The notes under the pieces were generated by a model. It made no database searches. It was not told the DNA's origin and saw nothing but the letters and a program-made list of their open reading frames with translations. Both the position numbers and the translations under genes were made by a program. Positions 12,648-58,851 of a stretch of DNA of 64,000 nucleotides are shown here, piece by piece; within the stretch, counting starts at the first letter, position 1; every line of letters begins with the position of its first letter. Source of the DNA: Agathobacter ruminis (lineage in GTDB: Bacteria; Bacillota; Clostridia; Lachnospirales; Lachnospiraceae); the NCBI RefSeq assembly GCF_002735305.1, contig NZ_PDYG01000018.1, positions 1 to 64,000 of the forward strand. The letters run 5' to 3'.

Positions 12648-13243
12648 GTTACCGTTCACAGCATGCATTTCCTATCATCCTCGCCCCATGGTCCCGGTAA
12701 GCCCTTCACTTTGCAAGAATATTTTGGTTTTCATATATGCAAAGGCTCGCATCCTGATTTTCATGTGTCTTTTGCATGCCTGTACAATTTTGAAAAAGGT
12801 TTATCGTTGGCGGACACCCAAAAGTTTTCATATATGTACTTCTCATCTAAGGGATACCCGGGTGAATTGGAGTGCGCCTAGTGAAATAAAAATGAGTTTT
12901 GATGTTTATAGGCATGCGCCGCCACGGAAGGCGGCGCAAATGCGATTGCAACACGACGTTGCGTAATGCATGGTGCCTATAAACACAAAACTCATTTTGT
13001 CATTTCACTTGGCAAACGGAGTCTGAACCCGGGTATCCCTTAGACTGAGGAGTACATAATATCAATAAATGAAGTGTCCGCCACTTCATAAACCTTTTTC
13101 CAAAATAGTTCATTCACCAAAAGACACATGAGTGATGCTCGCCTTTTGCATATTGAAATCCTAAAATATTCGCAAAATGTGAAGGGCTTACCGGGACCAT
13201 GGGGCGAGGATGTTTATGATAGCGCAGGCTGTGAATGGTAAAC
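12648..13243. repeat. About 600 bp imperfect inverted repeat with branched hairpin core
   Basis: Two copies of a roughly 280 bp sequence face each other between the surface-protein gene and metG. The outer ends read GTTACCGTTCACAGC on the left and GCTGTGAATGGTAAAC on the right. A 31-base block (12678-12708 versus 13177-13207) is identical in inverted orientation. Other shared blocks include CATGTGTCTTTTG, AAAAAGGTTTAT, GGCGGACAC and AAGGGATACCCGGGT. The centre (about 12905-12985) has a GTTTATAGGC/GCCTATAAAC stem enclosing a perfect 9 bp hairpin (TGCGCCGCC) and a second small hairpin. Open frames inside lack ribosome binding sites. No transposase is present. It could be a non-autonomous mobile element or a structured RNA locus. 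Confidence 0.85.
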
Positions 13244-51812: not shown

Positions 51813-52688
51813 TTATTGTGTCAAATCCCCGTAGCATTCCGGTCTTCTGTCCCGGAACAGCCCCCAACTCATGCGATTTTCTCTGATCTCATCGAGATCG
51901 TATGTATGAATCAAAACCGTCTCGCTCTCGCGGTCCGCCTGCTCTGTCACTTCTCCTGTTTCGTCTGTCATAAAGGAACTGCCGTAGAAATTCAGGGACG
52001 ACTCCTGTCCGCCGTTTTCCTTGCATGGCTTCACTTCCTCCAGACCAATTCTGTTTGCGGCTATCACCGGCATCAGATTACTTCCCGCATGTCCCTGCAT
52101 GCAGCGTCTCCAGTGTGGCATACTGTCACATTCAATAATCGGCTCACTACCGATTGCAGTCGGATAAAACAGAACTTCCGCGCCCTGCACTGCCATTGCA
52201 CGCGCGCACTCCGGAAACCATTGATCCCAGCAGATTCCCACTCCAATCGTGCCATATCTGGTTTCCCAGACACGAAATCCGGTGTTCCCCGGTGTAAAAT
52301 AAAATTTTTCCTGATAAAAATGATCATCCGGAATATGTGTCTTGCGATAGACGCCTAAAAGGCTACCGTCCGCATCGATGACTGCAACACTGTTATAGAG
52401 GACATTGCCGTCTTTTTCATAAAAGCTGATTGGCATGACGATTGCAAGTTCTTTTGCAATTTTGCGGAAGTGCAAGACCGCATCATTGTGCTCAACCGGC
52501 TTTGCAAAATCATAATATTCGTATCTGCGCTCCTGGCAGAAATATTGCCGTTCGAACAGTTCCGGAAGCAGCACAATCTGTGCGCCCTCAGCAGCTGCCT
52601 GCCGCACAAGTGCCTCAGCATGTGCAATATTTTCTTCCACAACGGATGTGCAGCGCATCTGCACTGCTGCAATCGTTACATTTCTCAT
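51813..52688 (-). CDS. aguB: N-carbamoylputrescine amidase
   Basis: 291 residues of the nitrilase superfamily. The catalytic triad is recognisable: Glu43 in LLPELFE, Lys in YRKTHIPD, and Cys in GVGICWDQWFPE. It hydrolyses N-carbamoylputrescine to putrescine, ammonia and CO2. Three bases separate it from aguA, and the pairing supports the specific assignment over other nitrilases. Confidence 0.95.
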   Translation of the reverse strand: MRNVTIAAVQMRCTSVVEENIAHAEALVRQAAAEGAQIVLLPELFERQYFCQERRYEYYDFAKPVEHNDAVLHFRKIAKELAIVMPISFYEKDGNVLYNSVAVIDADGSLLGVYRKTHIPDDHFYQEKFYFTPGNTGFRVWETRYGTIGVGICWDQWFPECARAMAVQGAEVLFYPTAIGSEPIIECDSMPHWRRCMQGHAGSNLMPVIAANRIGLEEVKPCKENGGQESSLNFYGSSFMTDETGEVTEQADRESETVLIHTYDLDEIRENRMSWGLFRDRRPECYGDLTQ

Positions 52689-52691
52689 GAT

Positions 52692-53798
52692 TTATTCTCC
52701 CTTCGGAATCGGAATCTGTTGCGTAATGCAATGAATATTTCCGCCACCTACAATAATTGCTCTCGCTTCTATCGGATAAATCTTGCGCGTCGGAAACAGA
52801 GCTTGCAGACATTCCACTGCGACCCTGTCATTTTCATCACCAAACTGCGGCACAATGATGCCGCCATTGGCGATATAAAAATTGACATAACTCGCTGCGA
52901 GCCGCTCTCCGGCTTCACGCATATCTTCGCCTTCTTCAAATACGAATCCGTCCAGCTCCTCCTGCGTGATGCAGACCGGATTCTTCGGAATCGGCAATTT
53001 ATGAACGGTAATTGCACGACCTTTTGCATCCGTCTGCGCAAGCAATGCTTTTTCGCAGGCACGGCTCATCTCATATTGAGGATCGTTCGGATCATCGGTC
53101 CATGCCAGAACCACTTGTGCCGGACCCACGAAGGCACAGATATTATCCACATGTTCATTGGTTTCATCCTGATATATTCCGCATGGAATCCATACTACCT
53201 TTTGGGCACCGAGATAATCGCACAACTGTGCCTCGATTTGTTCTTTTGTCATCTGCGGATTTCGTCCTCTGCTGAGCAGACAGGCTTCTGTCGTCAGGAT
53301 GGTTCCTTCCCCATCACTGTGAATGCTTCCGCCTTCCAATACAAAAGGATGCGCATCAAAACAATCCATCTGCAGAGCATCACAGATTTGTGCCGCGGCT
53401 GCATCATCCTTATCCCAGTGTGCATACAGCCCATCATATTCGCCACCCCAGGCATTAAATGCCCAGTCGATTCCGCATACTTCTCTGTCGTTCGTGATAC
53501 AGGTCGGACCGACATCGCGCGCCCATGCATCATCAGTTTCAATGCAAAGGATATGGATCTTTTCATCATTGCAAAATACCTGCTGTACCTGATTGCGATG
53601 CTGCAGATCTGTCAGCATCCACACTTCTTCGGATTCCGCAATTGCGCGTGCAATCTGCGTAAATGCGGATTGTGCAGCCGTCGCCTGATGCGGCCATGAT
53701 CCCGGTCTCACCGGCCAGATCATCACACAGCCTTTATGTTTCTCATATTCCGCAGGCATCCTGAATCCGTCTGCACGCGGTATCGTCTCTCGTTTCAT
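52692..53798 (-). CDS. aguA: Agmatine deiminase
   Basis: 368 residues of the peptidyl-arginine-deiminase-like family. Signature segments are [34 protein letters not shown] and the C-terminal [13 protein letters not shown] with catalytic Cys357. It converts agmatine to N-carbamoylputrescine and ammonia. Lies between carboxyspermidine decarboxylase and aguB. Confidence 0.96.
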
Positions 53799-53819: not shown

Positions 53820-54965
53820 CTACGACAGTCTGTTTTTAAAGTCTTCGTAGCCGAATTTTCTGATGCATTCACAGGTGCCATCCGCTTTCATTCTGTAAAT
53901 GGATGGCAATGGAATTCCATTAAATGTATTATTTTTGACCATCGAATAGATTGCCATATCTTCAAATACAAGGCGATCTCCGATGGAAAGCGGTCGGTCA
54001 AATGCGTAATCACCTATGATATCTCCCGCCAGACAGGTGTAAGAGCTGAGGCGGTATTTATACGGCTTTTCGCCCCACTCACCACTGTCGCGAAGCGGCG
54101 GACGATATGGCATTTCAAGGACATCCGGCATATGGCATGCCGCAGATGCATCCAGAATTGCGGTTTGAATATCATTATCCACAATGTCCATCACCTCAGT
54201 CACCAGATATCCGGCGTTGAGCGCAATTGCTTCTCCCGGCTCCAGATATACCTCCAGCGCATAACGCTTGCGCACATCTTTTACCAGTTGAATCAGAAGT
54301 GCGCGGTCATAGTCCTCGCGCGTGATGTGATGTCCGCCGCCCATATTCAACCATTTCATTTGCTGCAAATAGGTACCGAATTTCTCCTCCACTGCTGCAA
54401 GCGTAGTGGCAAGGTCATCCGCATTCTGCTCACAAAGCGTGTGGAAATGCAGTCCTTCGACGCCGTCTAATACAGTCGGATCCTGCGCAAGCGCTTTTTG
54501 CAGATTCGATGCGGTGACACCGAGTCGCGATCCCGGTGCACATGGATCATATATTGCATGATCGCCCTGTGTGGAGCATTCCGGATTGATGCGCAAACCG
54601 ATTCCTATATGATGTTCCAGACATATGTCTTTGTATTTTTGCAGTTGTGCAATCGAATTAAAAACAATATGGTCGCAAATTTGTACCAGCTCATCCATAT
54701 CTTCGCTTTTGAATGCCGGAGCAAATACATGATTCTCTTTGCCCATCTCTTCTTTCCCGAGACGCGCTTCATAGAGACCGCTTGCAGTCGTCCCGCTTAT
54801 ATAGTTTGCGATTAACGGATATTCACAATAATTAGAAAATGCCTTCTGCGCAAGGAGAATCCGGCATCCGCTTTCCTCCTCCACGGCTTTTAAAATCTCC
54901 AGATTGCGAATCAATTGTCCTTCATCAATTACATACGATGGGGTTGGAATCTGTCCAAAGTCCAT
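53820..54965 (-). CDS. nspC: Carboxynorspermidine/carboxyspermidine decarboxylase
   Basis: 381 residues, fold-type III PLP decarboxylase. The cofactor lysine is Lys41 in LAQKAFSNY. HFHTLCEQN and MGGGHHITR segments are typical of NspC. Produces spermidine from carboxyspermidine (or norspermidine from the shorter homologue). I prefer the ATG at 54965 because AAAGGG lies eight bases upstream; an ATG at 54983 is also in frame. Follows the dehydrogenase gene directly. Confidence 0.94.
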   Translation of the reverse strand: MDFGQIPTPSYVIDEGQLIRNLEILKAVEEESGCRILLAQKAFSNYCEYPLIANYISGTTASGLYEARLGKEEMGKENHVFAPAFKSEDMDELVQICDHIVFNSIAQLQKYKDICLEHHIGIGLRINPECSTQGDHAIYDPCAPGSRLGVTASNLQKALAQDPTVLDGVEGLHFHTLCEQNADDLATTLAAVEEKFGTYLQQMKWLNMGGGHHITREDYDRALLIQLVKDVRKRYALEVYLEPGEAIALNAGYLVTEVMDIVDNDIQTAILDASAACHMPDVLEMPYRPPLRDSGEWGEKPYKYRLSSYTCLAGDIIGDYAFDRPLSIGDRLVFEDMAIYSMVKNNTFNGIPLPSIYRMKADGTCECIRKFGYEDFKNRLS

Positions 54966-54987
54966 ATCTTTGCCCTTTTCCATTCTG

Positions 54988-56247
54988 TTAGTCTACCAAT
55001 ACCGGATTTTCGACTACCTGCCATGGCAATCCCCATTTGTTCAATGCTTCCATGTATGGATCCGGATCAAATTCATCTGTCGTGAATACACCCGGCTGTT
55101 TCCATTGGCCGGTTACTACCATCATGGCTCCAATCATCGCCGGTACACCTGTCGTATATGAAATCGCCTGAGAACCGACTTCTTTGTAACATTCCTGATG
55201 ATCGCAGACATTGTAAATATAGATAGAGCGTTCTTTTCCATCCTTGATACCGGTGAAAATACATCCGATATTGGTCTTGCCGACGGTTCTCGGTCCAAGA
55301 GAAGCCGGATCAGGAAGCAATGCCTTCAAAAACTGAATCGGCACAATCTCCTGTCCGTTGTAATTGATCGGAGTTGTGCTGAGCATTCCGACGTTTTCCA
55401 GACATTTCATATGTGTCAGATAACTCTGTCCGAATGTCATGAAGAAGCGGATACGCTTTACTTCCGGCATGTTGCGGCCAAGCGCTTCAATTTCTTCATG
55501 GTGAAGCAGATACATATCCTTTTTGCCGACGCCGTCGAAATCATATTCTCTCTTGATGCTCATCGCCGGTATTTCAATCCACTTTCCGTTTTCCATATAG
55601 GAGCCCGGTGCTGATACCTCACGCAGATTGATTTCCGGGTTGAAGTTGGTTGCAAACGGATATCCGTGATCTCCGCCGTTGCAGTCAAGAATATCAATGG
55701 TATGAATTTCATCAAAATAATGCTTCTTTGCATATGCGGCAAATACGGATGTCACACCCGGATCAAATCCGGTTCCCAAAAGCGCGGTCAGTCCTGCTTC
55801 CTTAAATTTGTCCTCATAAGCCCACTGCCATGAATAATCAAAATATGCTGAGAATCCAAGGTCTTTGCAGCGCTTGTCATAAACGGCGCGCCAAGCCGGA
55901 TCGTCAATGTCTTCCGGCTCGTAGTTTGCTGTGTCGATATAGTCTACTCCGGCAGCCAGACATGCATCCATAATGGTCAGATCCTGATATGGCAGAGCCA
56001 CATTCAATACCGCGGTCGGTGCGTAATCTTTGATCAATTTGGTCAGAGCTTCGACATCATCCGCATCAATCTGCGCGGTTTTGATGACGGTCTTTGTGGT
56101 ATTTTGTAATTTCTCTTTCATCGCCTCACACTTGCTGACGGTGCGGCTTGCGATCATAATCTCCTCAAATACATCACTGTTCTGGCAGCACTTGCTGATT
56201 GCAACCTGTGCAACGCCTCCACATCCGATAATTAATAATTTTGCCAT
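54988..56247 (-). CDS. Carboxynorspermidine/carboxyspermidine dehydrogenase (saccharopine dehydrogenase-like)
   Basis: 419 residues. An N-terminal Rossmann fold (LLIIGCGGVAQVA) and the saccharopine-dehydrogenase-like body. It condenses putrescine (or diaminopropane) with aspartate beta-semialdehyde and reduces the imine with NADPH to carboxyspermidine. The neighbouring nspC makes this assignment much firmer than lysine metabolism. Ribosome binding site AAAGGAG. Confidence 0.94.
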   Translation of the reverse strand: MAKLLIIGCGGVAQVAISKCCQNSDVFEEIMIASRTVSKCEAMKEKLQNTTKTVIKTAQIDADDVEALTKLIKDYAPTAVLNVALPYQDLTIMDACLAAGVDYIDTANYEPEDIDDPAWRAVYDKRCKDLGFSAYFDYSWQWAYEDKFKEAGLTALLGTGFDPGVTSVFAAYAKKHYFDEIHTIDILDCNGGDHGYPFATNFNPEINLREVSAPGSYMENGKWIEIPAMSIKREYDFDGVGKKDMYLLHHEEIEALGRNMPEVKRIRFFMTFGQSYLTHMKCLENVGMLSTTPINYNGQEIVPIQFLKALLPDPASLGPRTVGKTNIGCIFTGIKDGKERSIYIYNVCDHQECYKEVGSQAISYTTGVPAMIGAMMVVTGQWKQPGVFTTDEFDPDPYMEALNKWGLPWQVVENPVLVD

Positions 56248-56248
56248 T

Positions 56249-57121
56249 TTATATCTCCTTTCGTGCGGACTTTTCTTCTTCTTCGAGCAAGTCCTCTACA
56301 TATCTCGGTAACATGAATGCACCCTTGTGCAGATTGGTTGTATAATACCATGTCTTGAGTTCACGCGCCTTCCATCTCTTCGCGTCGAGATCGCGAAGCG
56401 GATGATATTTTTTGGATGCAAATCCAAACATCCAGTACCCGGATGGACAGGTCGGAATATTGGCCTGATAGACACGATTGATTGGGAAGCTCTTGTATGC
56501 TTTGCGGTGCATCGCGCGGAATGCTTCCTCATCTTCATCATAAAACGGACTGCCATGCTGATATACCATGATGCCGTCTTCTTTCAGCGCACGGTAACAG
56601 CTTCCGTAAAATTCCTTGGTGAACAATCCCTCTGCATAGCCAAACGGGTCTGTCGTATCATTGATAATCAAATCATATTTGTCACGGCATCTTCGCAGGA
56701 AGCGCAAGCCATCCATATGTGTGACGGTTACGCGTTCATCGTCGAATCCTTTCGCCGTCTCCGGAAAGAATTTCCGGCTGATTTCGAGGAACATCTCATC
56801 CTGCTCCACGACATCGATGTGTTCAATCTCCGGATATTCGGTCAGTACACGCGCAACGCCTCCGTCGCCTCCACCGATGATCAATACATCTTTGACCTGT
56901 GGATGAACCGCCATCGGTACATGCACAATCATCTCGTTATAGATGAATTCGTCCGCTTCCGAAAAAATGATTTCGCCGTCAAGCACAATCATTTTGCCGA
57001 GTTCCTGTGTCTCAAAGACATCGATTCTCTGATATTCCGACTGCGCACTGTACAATTGTTTATTGACACGGATGCTTGTCTTTACATGCTCCGTCTCCAT
57101 TTGTGAAAACCAAAAATCCAT
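56249..57121 (-). CDS. speE: Spermidine synthase family aminopropyltransferase
   Basis: 290 residues. The nucleotide-binding GGGDGGVAR loop, VVEQDEMFLEISRKFF and the catalytic DTTDPFGYAEGLF (both aspartates of the DxxD motif) are intact. The family transfers an aminopropyl group from decarboxylated SAM to putrescine. No SAM decarboxylase (speD) gene is present in the window. Start at 57121 (MDFWFSQ) because AAGGAG lies nine bases upstream inside the end of speA; the longer frame to 57187 has no signal. Confidence 0.93.
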   Translation of the reverse strand: MDFWFSQMETEHVKTSIRVNKQLYSAQSEYQRIDVFETQELGKMIVLDGEIIFSEADEFIYNEMIVHVPMAVHPQVKDVLIIGGGDGGVARVLTEYPEIEHIDVVEQDEMFLEISRKFFPETAKGFDDERVTVTHMDGLRFLRRCRDKYDLIINDTTDPFGYAEGLFTKEFYGSCYRALKEDGIMVYQHGSPFYDEDEEAFRAMHRKAYKSFPINRVYQANIPTCPSGYWMFGFASKKYHPLRDLDAKRWKARELKTWYYTTNLHKGAFMLPRYVEDLLEEEEKSARKEI

Positions 57122-57126
57122 ACTCT

Positions 57127-58578
57127 CTACTCCTTGATGACATTGATCAGCGCAACGGTCGGATCCAATGTTCCCTGCAGGCTGCATCCTTTTTCTTTTG
57201 CAAAATCAATATATTCAATAATCTCACTCGTAATACGCTCGCCCGGTGTCAAAATCGGAATGCCCGGCGGATAGCACATTACCAGCTCCGCACAAATGCA
57301 TCCACTGGTTTCATGCAGCGGTTTTTGCACCTTTTCGGCATAAAATGCCTGTTGCGGTGTCATCACATTCTGCGGCTGAATGAATTCGCCGCAATACAGA
57401 TCGCTGGAATCACGTTCATACAATCGCTTGATATCTTCAAGTGCTCCAACCAGTCGCTCGATATCCTGAATGCGATCTCCGATTGAGATATATGCAAGAA
57501 TATTTCCAATATCTCCGAATTCAATCTGAATATCATATTCGTCGCGCAGCAGATCATATACTTCGATTCCGGTCAAACCAATTCCCTGTGTATAGACAGA
57601 CAGCTTGGTTACATCAAAGTCATACACGCTGTCTCCATCAATCAATTCTTTTCCATAGGCATAGAATCCGCCAATCTCGTTGATCTCCTCGCGCGCATAT
57701 TCTGCCATATGTGCCACCTTTTCGAAGGATTCCTCCCCGCGCAATGCCAGATTGCGGCGTGACAGATCCAGACTCGAAAGCAGCAGATATGATGCACTGG
57801 TTGTCTGGGTCAGATTGATAATCTGCCGCACATATTCTGCATCCATGCTCTCTCCGCACAGCAGAATCGAGCTCTGTGTCAGCGAACCGCCGGATTTGTG
57901 CATGGAGACTGCGGCCATATCCGCGCCGGCTTCCATCGCGGAGACCGGAAGATTTTGGTTAAAATACAAATGTGTGCCATGCGCCTCGTCAACCAGCACT
58001 TTGATTCCGCGCTCATGCGCAATCTTTACGATTTCTCTTAAATTGGAACAGATGCCGTAATAGGTTGGATTGTTAATCAGAATCGCTTTTGCATCCGGAT
58101 TCTCATCCATCACCTTACGCACCGATTCCACTTCCACACCGAGTGCAATGCCAATCTTCGGATTCACTTTGACTTCCACATAAACCGGTACGGCGCCACA
58201 GAGAACCATGGCGTTGATGACGCTCTTATGGACATTGCGCGGAATGATGATTTTGTCTCCTGCTTTGCAAACGGACAGAATCATGGATTGTACCGAACTG
58301 GTTGTGCCATTGACCATCAAAAACGCATGCGATGCCGAAAACGCATCCGCAGTCAGCTCTTCCGCTTCACGGATGACCGAAACCGGATGACCGAGATTAT
58401 CAAGCGGTTTCATGGAATTGACATCCAATCCAACACATTGTTTGCCCAGCAATTCCATCAACTCCGGATTGCCTCTGCCTCTCTTATGTCCCGGTACATC
58501 AAACGGTACCACTCTCTTTCGTTTGAATCGCTCCAATGCTTCACAGATTGGCGCACTCTTTTGCTCGAACTTATGCAT
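57127..58578 (-). CDS. speA: Arginine (Orn/Lys/Arg) decarboxylase, fold-type I
   Basis: 483 residues, short form of the prokaryotic ornithine/lysine/arginine decarboxylase family as in Bacillus SpeA. VPGHKRGRGNPE near the N-terminus, NNPTYYGIC, DEAHGTH and the PLP lysine in SMHKSGGSL are all present; the C-terminal domain has the conserved PGIPILTPGE. Because aguA and aguB follow, arginine to agmatine is the likely reaction. First gene of the operon, behind a terminator-like leader. Confidence 0.93.
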   Translation of the reverse strand: MHKFEQKSAPICEALERFKRKRVVPFDVPGHKRGRGNPELMELLGKQCVGLDVNSMKPLDNLGHPVSVIREAEELTADAFSASHAFLMVNGTTSSVQSMILSVCKAGDKIIIPRNVHKSVINAMVLCGAVPVYVEVKVNPKIGIALGVEVESVRKVMDENPDAKAILINNPTYYGICSNLREIVKIAHERGIKVLVDEAHGTHLYFNQNLPVSAMEAGADMAAVSMHKSGGSLTQSSILLCGESMDAEYVRQIINLTQTTSASYLLLSSLDLSRRNLALRGEESFEKVAHMAEYAREEINEIGGFYAYGKELIDGDSVYDFDVTKLSVYTQGIGLTGIEVYDLLRDEYDIQIEFGDIGNILAYISIGDRIQDIERLVGALEDIKRLYERDSSDLYCGEFIQPQNVMTPQQAFYAEKVQKPLHETSGCICAELVMCYPPGIPILTPGERITSEIIEYIDFAKEKGCSLQGTLDPTVALINVIKE

Positions 58579-58617
58579 TTCCTGTCCCTTAACCTTTTAT
58601 TTCTCTCGATAAAAAAA

Positions 58618-58643
58618 AGCAAGTGATATCATCATCACTTGCT
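58618..58643 (-). terminator. Intrinsic terminator in the speA leader
   Basis: On the minus strand AGCAAGTGAT pairs perfectly with ATCACTTGCT around a 6-base loop and is followed directly by a run of T (about eight). It lies only 40 bases before the speA start codon, downstream of a strong promoter, so transcription of speA must read through it. Confidence 0.88.
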
Positions 58644-58649
58644 CGCTTA

Positions 58650-58810
58650 TTATGCTATCTTTCGTTTCCGCTTTTCAGAGTAAATTTTGGCTACTCTTAT
58701 TGACCGTTTCACAAGATGATGATAAACCCGATTATAAAGTAATCAACTTATAAAATTTGAGCTTTTAACTCAATCAATAATTCGCTAGGCAAAACTTGCT
58801 CCGTTTTTAT
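58650..58810 (-). pseudogene. Possible remnant of a small helix-turn-helix gene in the speA leader
   Basis: One frame encodes TEQVLPSELLIELKAQIL and then stops (58748-58810). Another frame downstream encodes a segment containing SIRVAKIYSEKRKRKIA before its stop at 58650. These resemble the two ends of small Firmicute proteins of about 85 residues (LPEELL-type N-terminus and a YxLSEKSIQRI-type C-terminus). The middle appears deleted and frame-shifted. The resemblance is from memory and not verified. Confidence 0.35.
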
Positions 58811-58822
58811 CTAACATTATAA

Positions 58823-58851
58823 AGTATACTTTTCACCATGTGTCATGTCAA
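58823..58851 (-). promoter_or_regulatory. Strong promoter upstream of speA
   Basis: Minus strand consensus TTGACA (58846-58851), exactly 17-base spacer, TATACT (58823-58828). The start would be near 58816, giving a leader of about 240 bases before speA. Confidence 0.75.

Follow-up and report, generated by a model that had tools for sequence, protein, structure and literature searches.

In the window, i.e. the whole 64-kb stretch of Agathobacter ruminis DNA that was analysed, genes of polyamine metabolism follow one another on the minus strand behind a leader of about 170 nt, counted from the probable transcription start to the terminator. The parts of this region are as follows, with the basis of each assignment in brackets.

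58823 to 58851, minus strand: sigma-70-type promoter TTGACA-17-TATACT (sequence reading; 11 of 12 consensus positions)
58611 to 58644, minus strand: intrinsic terminator, hairpin and U run (sequence reading, terminator scan, conservation in leaders)
57127 to 58578, minus strand: speA-type Orn/Lys/Arg decarboxylase, the first gene under the putative control (closest NCBIfam models of LdcC/SpeA type, under the cut-offs of those long forms)
56249 to 57187, minus strand: speE, spermidine synthase (TIGR00417 above cut-off)
54988 to 56247, minus strand: carboxynorspermidine synthase-like gene, CANSDH (NF043000, E 2e-123, under the equivalog cut-off)
53820 to 54983, minus strand: nspC, carboxynorspermidine decarboxylase (TIGR01047 above cut-off)
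52692 to 53798, minus strand: aguA, agmatine deiminase (TIGR03380 above cut-off)
51813 to 52688, minus strand: probable aguB, N-carbamoylputrescine amidase (sequence reading and operon position only)

The promoter which a sequence-only reading of the region had placed before speA was present as claimed. Its boxes, TTGACA (58851-58846) and TATACT (58828-58823), are separated by a 17-base spacer, and it was the top of five matches in the region (shuffled sequences gave a mean of 1.7 at a laxer threshold). Sister species, denoted here by G codes, contained TTGACA...TATAAT at nearly the same spacing to the conserved core described below. A terminator-like hairpin at 58936-58910 belongs to the gene upstream of the leader, so that the leader can be regarded as a separate transcription unit. 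The hairpin with about eight T claimed shortly before speA was likewise real. It consists of a perfect 10-bp stem (AGCAAGUGAU/AUCACUUGCU, 58643-58634 with 58627-58618), extended in the terminator scan to 12 pairs over 58644-58617, with eight consecutive T next to it (58618-58611); 32 bases separate the last of these from the speA ATG at 58578. Three terminator-like sites were detected in the region, as against 0.2 expected from shuffles.

When the leader was used as a BLASTN query, matches were obtained in 25 of the 62 genomes of the genus. Two strongly conserved blocks were found in this alignment of relatives, which the earlier reading had proposed, and the top-scoring loci were situated just upstream of close speA homologues. 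Alignment of 37 cores, each of about 105 nt and nearly invariant, yielded three helices, P2, P3 and P4. A covariance model built on this alignment (R1) matched the A. ruminis core over positions 1-111 of 111 with 107.8 bits (E 2.9e-20), a score to be read as that of a training row, the A. ruminis sequence being one of the 37; the BLASTN matches to relatives are independent of the model. The elements of the leader, listed in the direction of transcription, are:

58790 to 58803, minus strand: P1 5' strand, CGGAG C AAGUUUUG, including the distal GAGCAAGU copy at 58801-58794 (minimum-free-energy (MFE) pairing with 58689-58676)
58687 to 58790, minus strand: conserved core domain, aptamer-like (full-length R1 match)
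58773 to 58780, minus strand: P2 5' strand UUAUUGAU, pairing with 58704-58697 (99.1% of cells paired)
58759 to 58771, minus strand: P3 hairpin GAGUU-AAA-AGCUC (two-sided changes in 3 of 5 pairs)
58747 to 58755, minus strand: P4 5' strand UUUUAUAAG, pairing with 58715-58707 (two-sided changes in 3 of 9 pairs)
58730 to 58744, minus strand: P4a hairpin GAUUA-CUUUA-UAAUC (covariation among unique cores)
58712 to 58723, minus strand: antiterminator strand AUCAUCAUCUUG, its 3' end overlapping the P4 3' strand (native versus swapped pairing; truncated-transcript MFE)
58707 to 58715, minus strand: P4 3' strand CUUGUGAAA (overlaps the 3' end of the antiterminator strand)
58697 to 58704, minus strand: P2 3' strand GUCAAUAA (covariation test; invariant or nearly so in the core alignment)
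58676 to 58689, minus strand: P1 3' strand, CAAAAUUU A CUCUG (MFE pairing; relatives have GACUCUG here)
58628 to 58641, minus strand: terminator 5' arm and loop segment, CAAG [UG] AUGAUGAU, pairing with the antiterminator strand (predicted fold)

Covarying base pairs, for which a test in relatives had been suggested, were indeed present. Among 97 R1 matches, 98.9% of cells pair, compared with 97.5% when the letters of the 3' strands are shuffled, and seven pairs show two-sided changes, compared with 1.0 in shuffles (none of 500 shuffles reached seven). Sliding the partners by one to three columns lowered pairing to 35-49%, a control that leans in favour of the structure, as the alignment of R1 matches is fitted to it. 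Most pairs of P2 and P4 show little covariation because the core is so invariant. As for P4a, it was missed by MAFFT with RNAalifold because of misalignment; when checked hairpin by hairpin, the 190 unique cores contained GGUU/AACC in 113 cases, GAUU/AAUC in 25 and GGCC/GGCC in two, i.e. this hairpin also covaries. The A. ruminis leader as a whole is more stable than its shuffles (z = -2.68). By sequence comparison, then, the core is a conserved structured domain resembling an aptamer, composed of P2, P3 and P4 with P4a and closed by P1, the 5' strand of which reads CAGAGUAU-GUUUUGC in sister species. Some variation was also encountered: one diverged member (L067 in G011; R1 E 7.8e-8) has an altered P3, and two loci upstream of potA (L221 and L254) contain large insertions within the core, apparently in the loop of P4.

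No reading frame is conserved along with this structure, and leader-peptide attenuation, in which a translating ribosome would govern termination, was rejected on that account. The A. ruminis leader does contain at its 5' end a frame of ten codons (ATG...TAG, encoding MLDKNGASFA), which would be its starting point. This frame has no ribosome site, however, and L063 reads ATG TAG at the same place; it is the RNA structure that is conserved, and we assign the peptide a negligible probability.

The antiterminator strand AUCAUCAUCUUG (58723-58712) is complementary to the terminator 5' arm (CAAG-UG-AUGAUGAU, 58641-58628). Over 47 leaders, duplexes formed with the leader's own arm averaged -14.25, compared with -11.13 (sd 0.33; none of 5000 swaps as low; z = -9.6) when arms were swapped between species, which corrects only partly for relatedness; with one leader per distinct segment, z was -9.0. 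In the larger set of 176 unique leaders, the values were -14.76 kcal/mol for own and -11.78 for swapped terminators (sd 0.18; best of 5000, -12.39), whereas a control segment just downstream of the antiterminator strand showed no preference (-5.50 vs -5.48). Leaders without a recognisable SpF59 domain (see below; 36 leaders, including some with diverged domains) had a mean of -12.84. Using a thermodynamic model, which leaves out co-transcriptional kinetics and tertiary contacts, we found that an A. ruminis transcript ending in the terminator loop has the antiterminator as its MFE structure, with P2 and P4 broken, and that the full leader folds into P1, core and terminator at -47.2 kcal/mol. 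This order of predicted folds is expected of a transcriptional OFF switch, which a ligand would bias. When the terminator 5' arm pairs with the P4 3' strand, neither P4 nor the terminator can form, so that the comparison of leaders reveals an expression platform with mutually exclusive states.

The sequence-only reading had assigned the role of competitor to another segment. It had noticed an octamer, GAGCAAGT, occurring both at the 5' end of the leader (58801-58794) and in the terminator 5' arm (58644-58637), and both copies are there; the distal copy was assumed to capture the terminator 3' arm. This pairing is not conserved, and the competitor that relatives share is the P4 3' strand. At the distal GAGCAAGU site, sister species have GAGUAUGU (G042 and G012) or GAGUAUUU (G055), two or three substitutions apart; the site is part of the P1 5' strand, and the bases that the sisters have in common belong to P1, whose pairing constrains the remainder. 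Over the same 47 leaders, the pre-core region paired with its own terminator 3' arm hardly better than with swapped ones (z = -2.3; the P4 3' strand and the 5' arm reached -9.6), and the distal copy was rejected as a conserved antiterminator on this swap test. Sequestration of the 3' arm by the distal copy, which the exact octamer repeat in A. ruminis would favour, is therefore very improbable as the switch itself. Forced, this pairing gives -41.5 kcal/mol as compared with the MFE of -47.2, and in the predicted fold with the antiterminator forced, the distal copy also takes the terminator 3' arm. Since the two pairings are compatible, the distal copy may reinforce the ON state, in A. ruminis only. 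A second possible competing pairing was observed elsewhere: AGAGU-like sequences lie 5' of the core (in P1, 58803-58799) and just 3' of it (58697-58693), in relatives likewise, and both copies can pair with the downstream ACUCU (58681-58676).

What stands of the earlier proposal is the kind of element, an attenuator or riboswitch-type leader of the polyamine operon with conserved core, terminator and covarying antiterminator; the pairing partner has to be replaced. Similarly, of the two features it expected to see conserved in relatives, a terminator recurs in 176 of 188 unique leaders, placed after the core and before the gene, and the GAGCAAGU pair differs even among sisters. Two leaders of speA in the same genus (L071 in G028 and L085 in G008) have a promoter and a terminator hairpin with no core, possibly as remnants of sensor loss.

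In most relatives, a match to RF02440 (SpF59_sRNA or 'ldcC RNA'), a family of 54 nt which Rfam files as sRNA, lies directly 5' of the core. A search of 291 genomes from the class detected RF02440 in 33, and at the retrieved loci the core follows it immediately. Both core and expression platform lie outside the RF02440 model. The full element, as these alignments present it, has two domains spanning about 200 nt and a terminator, and Rfam models only its 5' quarter; to judge by the name 'ldcC RNA', a part of it had already been noticed. In five Bacillaceae loci before CANSDH (L150, L207, L215, L220 and L229), the SpF59 domain is altered, with the conserved CAUACGGACAG changed into variants such as AUCGGUUCG, and the diverged member in G011 mentioned above also has a diverged SpF59 domain.

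The A. ruminis leader has no such domain. RF02440 gave no match in the 64-kb window at the gathering score, in the leader at E <= 10, or in the A. ruminis genome, and the domain cannot be hidden further upstream because the promoter adjoins P1 and leaves no room. Rfam as a whole returned only chance-level matches for the leader (gathering score and E <= 10) and nothing relevant for relatives without the SpF59 domain: with this domain gone and the core lacking an Rfam match, such leaders escape Rfam. The only gathering-level Rfam match in the window is an orphan family, the TwoAYGGAY RNA (RF01731), at 12865-13024 on the plus strand (69.9 bits vs gathering 43).

A. ruminis, G042, G012 and G055 have all kept the core without the SpF59 domain. 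In the SpeA tree they are grouped with L200 and L167 (99% SH-aLRT), of which L167 still has the domain. Leaders without it are scattered over this tree, which requires ten changes with the first labels. Relabelling L213 and setting aside the incomplete leaders L194, L233 and L244 lowered the total; at least eight changes are forced by starred branches, and seven would suffice if L167, against the evidence of its sequence, were scored as having lost the domain. This implies about eight gains or losses of the SpF59 domain on the SpeA tree. In relatives, SpF59 would thus be an accessory domain before the core, and as the A. ruminis lineage does without it, switching probably requires no more than the core.

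A stand-alone small RNA, running from a promoter to a terminator of its own, would agree with the Rfam type 'sRNA', with the pneumococcal F59 being reported as an RNA (PMC3395615) and with the short terminated transcript that is to be expected here. The RNA is fixed directly upstream of polyamine genes on the same strand, however, and its terminator cannot coexist with one of the core helices, so that the short RNA would be the terminated product of the attenuator. We consider an independent small RNA highly improbable; neither it nor a decayed small gene, the other alternative of the earlier reading, was supported.

Within the family, R1 matched 50 of 200 genomes (one per genus), and across the phylum 20 of 398; the A. 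ruminis genome contains a single copy of the core. At least 118 contigs from named genomes share an exact 22-base string of the core, with 93 Clostridia, 19 Bacilli, four Negativicutes and two unplaced among the matches listed. Polyamine genes followed in 210 of 213 loci with a classifiable downstream gene (some of them near-copies; six further loci were incomplete). By tblastn similarity, the downstream genes were SpeA in 103 loci, SpeD in 43, PotA in 36, CANSDH in 27, SpeE in one and others in three. The one SpeE assignment (L226) is weak and probably reflects a match at the wrong place. In L140, L181 and L227, the full two-domain RNA precedes a gene for a lipoprotein-like secreted protein, with peptidase-like sequence after it in L140; these three loci are a counterpoint to a polyamine reading.

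That the leader acts in cis as an attenuator is well supported by these comparisons. Since an aptamer-like core is combined with genes of both synthesis and import under one kind of element, we infer a riboswitch with a polyamine ligand. Altogether, we consider it likely that the A. ruminis leader is a cis-acting transcription attenuator, most probably a polyamine-sensing OFF riboswitch, whose ligand is predicted from gene context. When polyamine is scarce, the core would not hold P4, and the free P4 3' strand would capture the emerging terminator 5' arm, allowing RNA polymerase to read into speA-speE-CANSDH-nspC-aguA-aguB. When the polyamine end product (spermidine as a first guess) is abundant, it would bind and stabilise the core, the terminator would form and transcription would stop.

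The same attenuator could also be read by an RNA-binding protein, i.e. an antiterminator or repressor, with no small molecule involved. What is in evidence is the cis-architecture alone, and a near-invariant sequence would suit a protein site as well. However, such helices together with a tight sequence core are what one typically sees in aptamers, and three classes contain the RNA; we consider a protein reader unlikely. About equally improbable, in our judgement, is a riboswitch-type leader responding to some other ligand, for example arginine, agmatine, SAM or decarboxylated SAM. SAM-related compounds have known riboswitches, which provide a precedent, and speA, speD, potA and CANSDH have in common a pathway, not a single reactant. 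Yet potABCD, which serve import, have to do with neither SAM nor arginine, feedback of an end product on both synthesis and import fits a polyamine best, and no SAM-class Rfam family reached threshold in the 64-kb window. SAM-I itself was absent from the window at the gathering score and from the leader at E <= 10.

Returning to a polyamine-sensing riboswitch, one close comparison is RF02440. In relatives it stands immediately before the core that A. ruminis also has, and the genes that follow are speA/ldc, speD, potA or CANSDH; the A. ruminis leader, although entirely without this 54-nt 5' domain, occupies the corresponding place directly upstream of an Orn/Lys/Arg decarboxylase gene. It would seem that what Rfam lists as an 'sRNA' makes up half of a cis-regulatory element, and that switching is done by the unlisted half. 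In pneumococcus, F59, the founder of the Rfam family, is an 82-nt transcript between SP0915 and SP0916 and upstream of the latter (PMC3395615), and SP0916 is an arginine decarboxylase according to the title of PMC7531197; F59 thus attests to a short RNA being made from one leader in this family.

The open-access literature searched yielded no description of the core, and neither did look-ups in Salvail 2023, Brewer 2021, Narunsky 2024, Stav 2019, Mann 2012, Warrier 2018 and the pneumococcal SP_0916 paper. Other candidate RNAs near polyamine genes are the odc1 motif and a potE-associated candidate (Brewer et al. 2021, PMC8632094). There, odc1 is presented as a small pseudoknot-containing element associated with genes for ornithine decarboxylase, and no architecture in common with the core was apparent from this description.

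The closest proven case is the spermidine riboswitch derived from SAM-I (Salvail et al. 2023, PMC10853860). According to that paper, it has only 13 representatives; this OFF-type switch of Gram-positive bacteria precedes polyamine genes, ldcC and speE among them, and spermidine causes it to terminate transcription. The use of dedicated polyamine riboswitches by bacteria has been contested, and the same paper calls earlier evidence unconvincing. The A. ruminis leader likewise combines polyamine genes with terminator control, in an OFF-type arrangement of terminator and antiterminator that is predicted here, and this expression platform is testable in a single tube. Compared with the SAM-I variant, the RNA class of A. 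ruminis has another fold and is far commoner, with one kind of element spanning synthesis (speA, speD and the carboxynorspermidine route) and import (potA). Tentatively, and with somewhat more doubt than confidence, we propose that the core represents an undescribed, widespread class of polyamine riboswitch with its own fold, distinct from the SAM-I-derived one, in which SpF59 would be an optional accessory or second sensor dropped in some lineages.
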